Source: Candidatus Altimarinota bacterium | Lineage (GTDB): Bacteria > Patescibacteriota > Gracilibacteria > UBA4473 | DNA: 33,312 nucleotides | Reading direction: 5' to 3' | NCBI GenBank assembly: GCA_021734785.1 | Contig: JAIPIF010000008.1 | Span: 1 to 33,312, forward strand | Shown: piece after piece, positions 5,376-10,606 of the stretch | How the letters are laid out: the number at the start of each line of letters is the position of its first letter | How positions within the stretch are numbered: position 1 is the stretch's first letter | Made by a program: the position numbers and the translations under genes | Notes under the pieces: generated by a model | Told to the model about the DNA's origin: nothing | The model's database searches: none | The model's input: the letters and a program-made list of their open reading frames with translations, nothing else

Positions 5376-7349
5376 ATGGCTGATTTTGGTTCCAGCATCA
5401 AAAAAGCATCCGATGCCGCCAAAGGCGTTGAAACACTGAAGCACTCTGACGGAGCGCGGGAGGTTGAAAAACTTGCTTCGCTGATAACAAAAGGAAAAGA
5501 AACCGATAAACTCCTCGACACCAAAGAAGTCCTCACGGAGAGCTTCACGGACAAAACAGATCTGGAGCGGCAAACACGCGAAAAAGCGAAAAAAGCCCCT
5601 TGGTGGAAGCGTGGTCTCAAGTATGTCATTGGCGGGGGATTTGGATTGCTGCTGGGAAAAGAAATTTTTGGAGGCAAAAAAGAAGACGTCGAGCAGGCGG
5701 CGGAAAACACCGTCGAGGTCGCGGAAGAAAGTGTCGACATCTGGACGGATGAGGAGCGGCTCAAAGAACTGAATGACAGCATCGAGCAGGGCAAAAAAAC
5801 CAAAGAAGAAATCGAGGAAATCGAACGAGAGATGAACGAAAAGCACGGATTTGTCCCCAGCGAAAAACCCACCAAAGACAACTGGCGTGTGTATCTCGAA
5901 GAACAGGAAAAAAAGTATGCCGACTACGGTCATCGTGACGCCTGGTCCGACGCCTGGGAAAAGACACGATTCCGATATGACAAGGAAACGGGCGAAAAAG
6001 AAAAGCGCAGCTTTGTCTGGCGTTTGTTTGCGTTTTTCCCAGCGGTAATCGGCACGTACAAAAAATGGAAAATCTTTGAAAAGATGAAAAAGAGCAGGAT
6101 GCTCGACACGGTCAAAACACTCGACGATAAAAAAGGCGAGGCCGAGAAAAAAATAAAAGAGGTCGAGGGAAAAATTGAGGAGGGGATGGAAGATAAACAC
6201 GAGGCTTTTAGTGCGGTGTTTGAAGAAAATCCGTACGCACTCAATCTGTCCAAACAGTATTTCCAAAAACTCGGATCGCTGCTGCACAGTGCGGACAAAT
6301 ATTCTTCGGCCGAGCGTGCTGAGCAGATACGATCGATTCATCGCGACATCGGCAAAAAGGGCGTTGCAAAATTTGGCCCGAAGTTTGGAAAAATGAAAAA
6401 TTTCGAGAAGTTTCTGCCCAGCATGAAAGTCAAAACCCGTGGCGGTCTTGTCTTTGTCGAGGTGATCGGGAAGTCGCTGGGGCAAGCCCTCCGTGCCGGA
6501 TCAGAGCGAGGCGGCTGGGCGACCGCCTGGGATGTGTTTCAACACGAAATGGCCGACGGGGACAACTGGAAAGATGCCGCCCCAATCTGGGGCACGATCC
6601 GGAGTTTTGAAAGACTCGGGGTGGACGACGGTCGCTCCCGCTGGAGCAAATGGCTGGAGGCGGGGCTCTCCCTCGGGATGGACGTCGCCACTGTGGTAGG
6701 AATTGTCGGTTCTTTGGGGGTTGCCACGCCGGGAATCATCGCTGCCCGTACCGCTGGGGGAGGGATTCTCAAATCCGGCATGCGAAAACTCGCTTTCAAA
6801 CAAATGGTGCGCGAATCTGCAAAAACAGGTGAAAAATTCGCCACAAAAACATTTACCAAACAAGCAAGCAAAACCGCTGGCAGGAAAATTGTTCGCACGG
6901 CAGGAGGGAAGGAAACTCGAAATATGATTATGCGCACCGCTGGTGGGAAGCTGTCATTTAAACTGCATCTGATGATGACTACGATCTCACAATTCTTTGG
7001 ATCCGAAGTCGAAGAAACCGTCGGCGAAGTCAAACACGATTTCCGCGAGAGTTTCTACACCCCCGAGCAAAAACGATTTCTCGAGCTTACCCAAAACGCG
7101 CAGTTTGACAGCACAGCCACCGAAGAAATGCCCACCGAAGCCGTCCTGCCAGAGGAGGATGAGCCGCCCTCGGTCTCCGCTGGCGCGCTCAAAGAAGCGG
7201 AGAAAAAACAGCAGGGAAAAGAAACTTCCCCCCTCCGAGTGACACACAAATCAGACGATGCTCCAAGAGAAAAAGACGAAAGCGCCCCCACCATTTCACC
7301 GTGGGAAAAAGAAAAAGAAATCGAGTACAATCAAAAAAACGCCGCCTAA
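5376..7349 (+). CDS. Large Lys/Glu-rich coiled-coil membrane-associated protein, unknown function
   Basis: 657 residues; I do not recognise the family. What can be seen: a charged N-terminal ~80 residues, then a basic WWKRGL followed by a short glycine-rich hydrophobic stretch (VIGGGFGLLLGKEIFGG, about residues 87-103); long charged helical regions likely to coil (about 125-160 and 235-280); a second hydrophobic patch FVWRLFAFFPAVIGTY near 215; and a third, longer one GMDVATVVGIVGSLGVATPG near 430-450. A short motif recurs around residues 500-530 (IVRTAGGK, MIMRTAGGK). The last ~100 residues are acidic, Pro/Glu/Lys-rich and probably disordered. There is no enzyme signature. Its stop overlaps the convergent gene's stop by four bases. 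The mirror ORF on the other strand (5064-6485) is Phe-rich and is a shadow. Confidence 0.8.
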   Translation: MADFGSSIKKASDAAKGVETLKHSDGAREVEKLASLITKGKETDKLLDTKEVLTESFTDKTDLERQTREKAKKAPWWKRGLKYVIGGGFGLLLGKEIFGGKKEDVEQAAENTVEVAEESVDIWTDEERLKELNDSIEQGKKTKEEIEEIEREMNEKHGFVPSEKPTKDNWRVYLEEQEKKYADYGHRDAWSDAWEKTRFRYDKETGEKEKRSFVWRLFAFFPAVIGTYKKWKIFEKMKKSRMLDTVKTLDDKKGEAEKKIKEVEGKIEEGMEDKHEAFSAVFEENPYALNLSKQYFQKLGSLLHSADKYSSAERAEQIRSIHRDIGKKGVAKFGPKFGKMKNFEKFLPSMKVKTRGGLVFVEVIGKSLGQALRAGSERGGWATAWDVFQHEMADGDNWKDAAPIWGTIRSFERLGVDDGRSRWSKWLEAGLSLGMDVATVVGIVGSLGVATPGIIAARTAGGGILKSGMRKLAFKQMVRESAKTGEKFATKTFTKQASKTAGRKIVRTAGGKETRNMIMRTAGGKLSFKLHLMMTTISQFFGSEVEETVGEVKHDFRESFYTPEQKRFLELTQNAQFDSTATEEMPTEAVLPEEDEPPSVSAGALKEAEKKQQGKETSPLRVTHKSDDAPREKDESAPTISPWEKEKEIEYNQKNAA

Positions 7350-8362
7350 AAAGTTGTTTTCCCGTTCCCGCTCTTTCCGTGGTTTACCCCATTTCCATTG
7401 AGATTTTCTTCAATATTTTTAATCGCTTTTTGCTGATCCCGTCGCATTTTTTCCGCACGGTTTTCCGAGATCTGCTGCACGACTTTATGCGGATGTTGTG
7501 CGTTTTCAAAAATCAAGGTCGCGTCTCGATTGGCCGTCTCGATTTCGATGTGCCCCAGCCCCAGTGCCCAGCGGATAAATCCGAGATTATTCGGAGCGAC
7601 GTTGGTAATCGAATCGTACATGATCCCGTTGGTGCTGGAACCAAAGAGTTCGTGGTTTTGGAGAATCACACGCTGATTGGTGATGTAGATCACATCGTAC
7701 GTGTAGTCGAGCCAGGCTTTGATGAAGAAGGCTCCCGCAAAAAAGAAAAACAAAACCCCGAAAGCAATTCCCATTCCGGCCCACTCCGTCCCGCGGGCCG
7801 AGAGAAAAATGAGCAGCCCCGTACTCGTAAAAATCAAGGGCACGATAAGATTCAGCAAGAAAATAATGGGATGTTTTTGGATAACCCGTTCGACCGTTTC
7901 ATCCTTGAGACTATAAAATTTTCCATGCCGTTTGGCCTTGCACCGTGCAAGTGCTTCCTGCTCGTAGCCGTACATCGTGCTAAACTTCAGGATTCGTAGG
8001 ATCCGCAAAACGAGAAACATTTCAAACGAGGCGAGCAATCCAAGTTTTGCGAGGAAAAAGGGGAGAATTGCAAGTAAATCGACGATCCCTTCCCAGGAGA
8101 CGAGAAAACGGAGCGGCCGTTTGTCCGACCAGATGCGGAGCAAATATTCCACCGTAAAAATCGTCACGGTAATCTGATCAAATCGGTACAGCTCATCGTG
8201 CAACCAAGCCAAATTTGGCATGAAATGTAGCGGAATCACCGCAATCGAAAAGATGATGAAAAAGGCCAACACGCCGTTGATTGCATGCGCCCGCGGATTG
8301 GCTGGATCGTGCAGACATCCGTGAAAGAAATTTCGCACCTCAGCAACTGTTTTGACCACCAT
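7346..8362 (-). CDS. Voltage-sensor domain fused to a membrane-linked bacterial PH domain
   Basis: 338 residues. Residues 28-130 look like the S1-S4 voltage sensor of ion channels: S1 (28-46); S2 with FTVEYLLRIW (69-78, acidic E72); S3 with EGIVDLLAILPFFL (91-104, D95); and S4 with FLVLRILRILKF (116-127), carrying R120, R123 and K126 at every third position. No S5-pore-S6 with a TVGYG-type filter follows. Instead there are two more spans (about 166-188 and 197-218) leading into a DUF304/bPH_2-type PH domain (YDVIYITNQRVILQ, IMYDSITNVAPN, LGLGHIEIETAN), then a basic tail. Family knowledge: voltage sensors can drive attached domains without a pore, as in voltage-sensing phosphatases; bPH_2 function is largely unknown. 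Coupling of the two is inference. Confidence 0.8.
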   Translation of the reverse strand: MVVKTVAEVRNFFHGCLHDPANPRAHAINGVLAFFIIFSIAVIPLHFMPNLAWLHDELYRFDQITVTIFTVEYLLRIWSDKRPLRFLVSWEGIVDLLAILPFFLAKLGLLASFEMFLVLRILRILKFSTMYGYEQEALARCKAKRHGKFYSLKDETVERVIQKHPIIFLLNLIVPLIFTSTGLLIFLSARGTEWAGMGIAFGVLFFFFAGAFFIKAWLDYTYDVIYITNQRVILQNHELFGSSTNGIMYDSITNVAPNNLGFIRWALGLGHIEIETANRDATLIFENAQHPHKVVQQISENRAEKMRRDQQKAIKNIEENLNGNGVNHGKSGNGKTTF

Positions 8363-8429: not shown

Positions 8430-8457
8430 TTGACAATTTTTTTAGCAATCCTAAAAT
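8430..8457 (+). promoter_or_regulatory. promoter of the dnaK unit
   Basis: Consensus -35 TTGACA, 16-nt spacer, -10 TAAAAT. The -10 lies inside the CIRCE operator. The predicted start (about 8464) is some 16 nt before the 51-residue ORF. Confidence 0.8.
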
Positions 8458-8468
8458 CCGAGTGCTAA
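8442..8468 (+). promoter_or_regulatory. CIRCE operator (HrcA binding site) of the dnaK unit
   Basis: TTAGCAATC, nine bases, GAGTGCTAA. Against the CIRCE consensus TTAGCACTC-N9-GAGTGCTAA this is 17 of 18 arm positions with the exact 9-nt spacer. It covers the -10 hexamer, so bound HrcA would block RNA polymerase. HrcA itself is not encoded in this window. Confidence 0.9.
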
Positions 8469-8479
8469 AAAGTTTAAAA

Positions 8480-8635
8480 ATGACAGAAGAACTTGGCGGA
8501 ATAAATTCTCCCATTCCTGCAATCGAAAAACTCCACCGCGATCTTAGACGATGGCAAAAGTCCAATTGGGCAATTTCTATCGTGATGCTGATTGCTGTGA
8601 TTGCACAAATATTTCTTCTCATTTTTCATTCGTAA
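8480..8635 (+). CDS. 51-residue tail-anchored membrane peptide, first gene of the CIRCE-controlled dnaK unit
   Basis: ATG at 8480, TAA at 8633-8635, 51 residues. An amphipathic, charged N-terminal half (MTEELGGINSP, then EKLHRDLRRWQKSN) is followed by one hydrophobic span, WAISIVMLIAVIAQIFLLIF, ending almost at the C-terminus, so the peptide is probably tail-anchored with its N-terminus in the cytoplasm. No family is recognised. It begins about 16 nt after the predicted start of the CIRCE-regulated transcript and ends 33 nt before dnaK, with no terminator between, so it should be induced with DnaK by heat or misfolding stress (inference). There is no Shine-Dalgarno sequence. A longer in-frame reading from 8285 would run through the promoter and is unlikely. 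Confidence 0.6.
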   Translation: MTEELGGINSPIPAIEKLHRDLRRWQKSNWAISIVMLIAVIAQIFLLIFHS

Positions 8636-8668: not shown

Positions 8669-10606
8669 ATGAGCAAAATTATCGGAATCGATCTCGGAAC
8701 CACCAATTCCTGTCTCGCCACGATGGAGGGCGGCAAAGCCACCGTCATCCCCAATGCAGAAGGCGGGCGCACCACACCGTCAATTGTGGCCAAAAAGGAC
8801 GATCAGATTCTCGTCGGAAACCCCGCCAAACGACAGGCACTGACGAATACAAAAAATACAATTTTTTCCGCGAAACGGTTTATCGGCCGCAAGTACCACG
8901 AGGTCGAAAACGAAATGAAAAAAATGCCCTTTGAGTTTCACAAAGGCAAAAACGACACCGTGGAGATTGTGTTTGATGAAAAAAATGTCCGCCCGGCAGA
9001 GATTTCAGCCAAAGTGCTGGGGAAACTCAAATCCGATGCCGAAGCATACCTCGGGACAAAAGTGACCAAAGCCGTCATTACCGTGCCGGCGTACTTCAAC
9101 GATGATCAGCGAAAAGCGACCCGTGACGCGGGCAAAATCGCCGGGCTGGAAGTGGAACGAATTATCAACGAACCCACTGCCGCCGCCCTCGCGTACGGAC
9201 TGGACCGAAAAGGAAAAGACGAAAAAATTGTCGTGTACGATCTGGGGGGCGGGACCTTTGATGTGTCTGTGTTGGAAATTTCAGACGGCACATTTGAGGT
9301 GCTCGCGACCAACGGCGATACCCACCTGGGAGGCGATGATTTCGACAATGCCATCATCGATTATCTGGTGGACACCTTTGAAAAAGACAACGGGGTCGAT
9401 CTCAAAAAAGACAAGATGGCCATGCAACGAATCAAAGAGGAGGCTGAAAAAGCCAAGATCGAACTTTCGAGCACTCAGGAAATCGACATTAACCTGATGT
9501 ATCTCACCGTCAAAGATGGAGCCCCCCTGCATCTGAATGAAAAACTGTCGCGATCGAAATTTGAAACTCTCGTCGAAAAACTGATCGATCGATCTCTCGA
9601 GCCGTGTAAAAAAGTCATCCAAGACGCAAAACTCAACAAGGGGGATATCGATGAAATCCTCCTGGTCGGGGGAATGACCCGCATGCCTCAGGTACGAAAA
9701 AAAGTCGAAGAATTTTTTGGCAAAGCCCCAAACACCAGCCAAAACCCAGATGAGGTCGTCGCACTCGGTGCCGCCATCCAAGGGGGGGTCCTCCAGGGAG
9801 AGGTCAATGATGTCCTTCTGCTGGATGTGACTCCGCTGACACTTGGGATTGAAACGGCCGGTGGTGTCCGCACGCCGATGATCGAACGCAACACCACCAT
9901 TCCCGCCAAAAAGTCGCAGGTGTTTTCGACCTACGCCGATAACCAAACGCAGGTCCAAATTCACGTCCTGCAGGGCGAGCGGGAAATGGCCGCAGACAAT
10001 AAATCGCTTGGACAGTTTATTCTCGACGGAATTCCTCCCGCACCCCGCGGTGTACCGCAGATCGAAGTGACGTTTGACATCGATGCAAACGGGATTTTAC
10101 AGGTTTCAGCCCAGGATAAATCGAGCGGCAAAAAACAAGACATTCGGATTGAGGGTTCGAGTGGCATGACCGAAGAGGAAATTGAAAAAATGCAAAAAGA
10201 AGCCGAAGAAAATGCAGAAAAAGACAAAGAACGCAAAGAAAAAGCCGAGGCGCGCAACCATCTGGATTCGCTGATGTATCAGGCGGAGAAAACGGTCAAA
10301 GAAGCAAAAGAACTAAAAAAATCAGAACTCGATGATGCGGTGAAAAATCTGGAAGAGGGACTCAAAAAACCGGCAGAGCTGCTCAAAGACGAAAAAGCCG
10401 CTGCCAAAGATTTGAAGTCTGCCAGCGAAGACGTAGAAAAACTCCTGATGGAACTCGGGAAAAAAATGCACGAAGCCGGCGTCGATCCCAAGGCCGCTGA
10501 TGCGGAGAAAAAAGCCGAGGACGCTGGCGAGGAGGAGATCAAAGAAGCAGAATTTGAAGAAGAGAAAAAAGACAAAGACGACGAAAAAGAGAACAAGAAA
10601 AAATAG
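8669..10606 (+). CDS. dnaK: Chaperone DnaK (Hsp70)
   Basis: 645 residues, full length. The ATPase domain covers about 1-385 with [13 protein letters not shown] at the N-terminus, the [20 protein letters not shown] segment, [17 protein letters not shown] and [14 protein letters not shown]. The substrate-binding beta domain (about 390-505; [24 protein letters not shown]) and the helical lid follow. The C-terminal ~30 residues are a very charged Lys/Glu/Asp tail rather than the common EEVD-like ending. It binds and releases unfolded proteins in the cytoplasm with DnaJ and GrpE, which are not next to it here. It sits second in a transcript that starts at a CIRCE-covered promoter. There is no Shine-Dalgarno (CTTTCCAAAACC before ATG). 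A hairpin terminator follows. Confidence 0.98.

Follow-up and report, generated by a model that had tools for sequence, protein, structure and literature searches.

A Gene Joining a Kv-Type Voltage-Sensor Domain to a Two-Span Bacterial PH Module in Gracilibacteria

Domain Architecture of the Fusion Protein

The stretch of DNA analyzed here (33,312 nucleotides; hereafter, the window) is an entire contig (JAIPIF010000008.1) from the 1.06-Mb, 77% complete genome of a Candidatus Altimarinota bacterium of the class Gracilibacteria (assembly GCA_021734785.1). Its minus strand holds, at 7346..8362, an open reading frame (ORF) with an ATG start that encodes 338 amino acids. A preliminary description, made from the sequence alone, had read this ORF as a voltage sensor without a pore, fused to a bacterial PH (bPH) domain. 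The ORF proved to be real, with 29 full-length members gathered, and we confirmed that the protein comprises an ion-channel S1–S4 domain followed by a two-span bPH module, without a channel pore. The coordinates given below for the parts of this protein are on the same strand.

The S1–S4 voltage-sensor domain covers residues 23–141 (7940..8296), as placed by Pfam Ion_trans, the helices of an AlphaFold2 model, and Foldseek. Ion_trans matched residues 31–128 of the window protein (E = 3e-10; 40 bits at a cut-off of 25), and the match stopped at position 109 of the 241 positions of the profile, i.e., after S4. The motif F69-T-V-E72 in S2 (8147..8158) brings an aromatic and an acidic residue to the charge-transfer-centre positions, D95 in S3 (8078..8080) provides a counter-charge, and S4 carries R120, R123, and K126, each three residues apart (7985..8005), so that the features previously reported for residues 28–130 are all present. 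The register of S4 was taken from an ungapped alignment to Kv4.3, which assigns R120, R123, and K126 to charge positions three, four, and five of the Kv S4 helix in the usual numbering.

A linker of residues 142–156 (7895..7939) leads from S4 to the PH module. It is predicted at low confidence and contains an HG motif that is kept in the alignment of the window's clade. It is followed by the first strand and the two-span hairpin of the bPH module, which lacks a pore loop (residues 157–222; 7697..7894) and has the same extent as in stand-alone bPH proteins, and by the PH-type beta domain with the start of the C-terminal helix (residues 224–300; 7463..7693). Both bPH_3 and bPH_2 matched residues 219–297 of the window protein, each under its cut-off. 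Across 24 members (E ≤ 0.01), Pfam assigned Ion_trans to all, bPH_2 to 16, and bPH_3 likewise to 16. Pfam gave no match to a PTEN-like phosphatase domain in the window protein.

AlphaFold2 was run on the family alignment, both for the full-length protein and for the sensor alone. The full-length model reached a predicted local distance difference test (pLDDT) score of 88.4 and a predicted TM (pTM) score of 0.81, and arranged the chain as S1–S4 helices, a weak stretch (131–150), a strand, two spans, a PH-type sheet, and a long helix at the C-terminus. The sensor helices comprise residues 23–41, 49–79, 90–106, and 113–141, and the sensor alone was predicted with a pLDDT of 90.8. In Foldseek searches, the best 50 matches of the sensor in the PDB were all voltage-gated channels (query TM score 0.57–0.72, mostly 0.62–0.72 for Kv sensors). 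The full model retrieved Kv channels and the bacterial PH structures 3dcx and 3hsa, with root-mean-square deviations of 2.5–3.4 over 66–85 columns. The S1–S4 domain therefore very probably adopts a voltage-sensor fold, in agreement with the fold proposed earlier for residues 28–130. The assignment of the second module as a two-span bPH protein likewise held, based on the Pfam matches in members, the two PH structures, and a full-length alignment to stand-alone bPH proteins.

The reported lack of a pore helix and filter was borne out as well. In addition to the end of the Ion_trans match after S4, the two spans behind the sensor (173–188 and 195–222 in the AlphaFold2 model) are joined by a loop of only about six residues, into which a pore helix and filter cannot fit. 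A loose K+-filter pattern applied to the 29 fusions matched once, inside the PH domain of L003; no fusion therefore has a filter in the pore position (0/29). A chance ORF or broken channel gene is excluded by these 29 intact, diverged members. We also ruled out a degraded Kv channel, since the intact members occur in several families and the window's genome encodes a separate, intact Kv-type channel.

Conservation of the Sensor

Conservation was assessed in an alignment of 24 members, whose identity to the window protein lies between 26% and 77%. F69, E72, and D95 were invariant (24/24), and R120 and R123 nearly so. Among all 29 fusions, R120 and R123 were each kept in 28, and position 126 is lysine in 28 and arginine in one. 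The S4 charges are thus conserved among homologues, as the preliminary description would have it. Members of family f5 carry one or two extra outer S4 arginines, and ladders of four or five charges occur in L020, L137, L022, L023, L133, L138, and L139. Of these, L020 (family f15) and L137 (f5) possess a full S4 ladder of four arginines and a lysine. A sequence search against solved structures returned Kv4, Kv2, and other voltage-gated channels, with the best match over residues 59–129 (E = 2.8e-6).

Distribution and Origin of the Fusion

The 29 distinct full-length fusions, together with three that are cut by contig ends, all belong to the class Gracilibacteria. Within the window's family (f1), 17 of the 20 genomes examined contain a full-length member, and an eighteenth holds one truncated at the edge of a contig; of the two genomes lacking the fusion, one is 98% complete. 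Three further families of Gracilibacteria possess the fusion. It is found in three records that bear a name: Candidatus Gracilibacteria MAG-122, Patescibacteria UBA4473, and an uncultured bacterium. Beyond the class, 380 genomes sampled across the phylum yielded no fusion (E ≤ 1e-30). Among the matches listed at named loci, comprising 80 sensor ORFs, 76 had a K+ filter and three were these fusions (patescibacterial or uncultured); the remaining one, L098, is a short ORF that apparently goes out of frame in the pore region.

Both modules have relatives of their own. The fusion sensor aligns with Kv-type channels bearing GYG filters, and the C-terminal module can be aligned from end to end with stand-alone two-span bPH proteins, which are common in Gracilibacteria. 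In the tree of each module, all fusions lay together on the same side of one branch (98/94 and 100/96 support). This is the pattern that a single joining event followed mainly by descent would produce, and there is no need to assume several independent joinings.

Two other ORFs with S1–S4 domains were observed. L201/L194 (G042:C153:57-1163) encodes 369 amino acids; its Ion_trans sensor (E = 1.4e-10) precedes a domain that has neither a filter nor a Pfam match. Perhaps another type of pore-less sensor fusion, it was found at full length in one genome of 145. In L031 (G026:C62, approximately 1378-1864), an ORF consisting of S1–S4 only, with several positive residues in S4, stops directly after S4; it represents either a sensor-only protein or a truncated channel.

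Gene Neighborhood

The divergent neighbor of the fusion gene is dnaK (8669..10606, plus strand; Pfam HSP70), whose family is present at 12 of the 21 loci compared. Between both genes lies a CIRCE element, i.e., an HrcA operator (8442..8468, plus strand), with one mismatch and zero such sites expected by chance. It lies some 80 bp upstream of the start of the fusion gene and is overlapped by a sigma-70-like promoter-like site (8430-8457) that points to dnaK. CIRCE-like sites occur in the same interval of most dnaK-linked relatives, and the window's genome possesses an HrcA gene. In the dnaK-linked clade, the fusion gene may be expressed together with heat-shock genes. A possible single-span protein of 51 amino acids (MTEELGG...IFHS; 8480-8635) between CIRCE and dnaK is perhaps encoded by the first gene of the dnaK transcript.

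In most f1 members, the fusion gene is divergent from dnaK and convergent with a gene for a protein of 460–660 amino acids without a Pfam match. In the window, this convergent gene (5376-7349) encodes 657 amino acids, again without a Pfam match, and overlaps the end of the fusion gene by four bases; its family was found at eight of the loci compared. The neighbors differ between families, with dnaK in f1, an M23 peptidase and an HD protein in f5, and a bPH gene in f15. At two f15 loci (L157:6712-8269 and L158:7563-9113), a stand-alone bPH gene follows on the same strand within 10 nt downstream of the fusion, which resembles ydbS-ydbT pairs.

Proposed Function and Alternative Explanations

We propose an inner-membrane, non-channel voltage-sensor protein, in which a Kv-type S1–S4 domain is joined to a YdbS-like two-span bPH protein, and give this reading about even odds. 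The proposal draws on the predicted fold, the conserved sensor residues, the missing pore, the grouping of the fusions in both trees, the genomes in which no other Ion_trans protein accompanies the fusion, and the bPH gene directly behind the fusion in L157 and L158. The joining of the two modules would, most simply, have taken place once within Gracilibacteria. S4 would shift upon a change in membrane potential, and this movement could reach the two-span bPH module through the extension of S4 and the short linker behind it. The cytoplasmic PH face might then alter its binding of lipid, a partner protein, or other bPH proteins, by which an envelope or transport function would track the membrane potential. 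That the domain responds to voltage at all is somewhat more probable than not, and that this response serves to steer the bPH module is an evenly balanced proposition.

Several observations weigh against this proposal. Two S4 charges, the outermost ones, are absent from the window protein, with L117 at the second and E114 at the first position, so that weak sensing, a leak of the sensor, or a purely structural role come into question. One member, L014, has lost both R120 and R123 and is otherwise intact. The linker region (131–150) has a pLDDT of only 64–66; because of this low confidence, coupling between sensor and PH domain is not visible in the model. No partner common to all families, and hence no conserved operon, was found at the loci compared, and little is known in general about what bPH modules do. 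It is plausible that a membrane-potential response drives the PH module: the missing outer charges in the clade of the window protein speak against it, and the ladders of four and five charges found in sister clades speak for it.

The same observations bear on the possibility that S1–S4 is a relic whose only use is to anchor the bPH module in the membrane or to give it an oligomerisation platform, and whose charges are kept for folding and membrane insertion. The fact that S4 has only three charges in the clade of the window protein, the otherwise intact L014, and the weakly predicted linker would all fit. However, conservation of the charge-transfer triad and of the S4 charges is strong down to 26% identity, and L020 and L137 carry five-charge ladders, which makes a relic rather unlikely. 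We also considered that the sensor itself conducts, i.e., that a gating-pore current of protons or cations flows at the strongly negative potential of bacterial membranes and is regulated by the PH module, somewhat like in Hv1 or TPTE. The absence of the two outer S4 charges is what such a leak would call for; yet, it would not be expected in the four- or five-charge clades, and the gene neighborhood holds no pointer to such a current. Furthermore, no acidic residue was found in S1 of the window protein in the 24-member alignment, and hence no Hv1-type selectivity aspartate, which leaves conduction quite improbable. Least probable is that the protein acts as an auxiliary subunit, joining the cell's Kv channel via the sensor and localising it via the PH module: the window's genome does encode a complete Kv-type channel with a GYG filter, but such a role is unlikely in five f5 genomes (G068, G081, G124, G227, and G231; 95–99% complete), because the fusion is their only Ion_trans protein.

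Returning to a sensor that steers the PH module, this could be the first prokaryotic family of non-channel voltage-sensor effectors, although we consider this slightly less than an even prospect. Such proteins would be a bacterial counterpart of the voltage-sensing phosphatases, with a PH-type module at the surface of the inner membrane placed under the control of membrane potential. Work on bacterial electrical signalling raises the question of how membrane potential is read. If true, a conserved bacterial example would mean that sensors are coupled to non-pore effectors in prokaryotes as well, and would provide a protein-level route by which bacteria read their own membrane potential. For biophysics, the family would offer small natural sensors whose S4 helices carry three, four, and five charges. 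The non-channel voltage-sensor proteins covered by a 2023 review, i.e., VSP (voltage-sensing phosphatase), sNHE, and Hv1, are all eukaryotic (PMC10651576), and we found no report of a prokaryotic one in the open-access literature searched.

Comparison with Known Systems

The fusion shares features with four known systems. With the sensors of Kv channels (Kv4, Kv2, Kv1, and KCNQ; PF00520), it has in common the S1–S4 fold, the F-x-x-E motif in S2, the aspartate in S3, and S4 charges at every third residue. In contrast to these channels, it lacks the S5-P-S6 pore domain; members of the window's clade are also without the outer two charges of S4. Like the voltage-sensing phosphatases Ci-VSP and TPTE, it combines a pore-less sensor and a short linker with a membrane-facing cytoplasmic domain; unlike them, it is prokaryotic and has no phosphatase domain, the effector being a two-span bacterial PH module. 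The proton channel Hv1/VSOP is likewise a sensor without a pore domain and with three S4 charges, whereas the window protein has no S1 aspartate and carries a C-terminal bPH module. Finally, bPH_2 proteins of the YdbS/DdE type (COG3402; PF03703) show the same order of two spans and a PH-type domain. The bPH module of the fusion differs in that it sits behind a voltage sensor, and bacteriocin genes were not identified nearby. Proteins of this type nevertheless give the closest functional facts for the effector module, as the YdbS/DdE-type bPH_2 membrane proteins DdE and DdF are required to transport a leaderless bacteriocin (PMC8657885).
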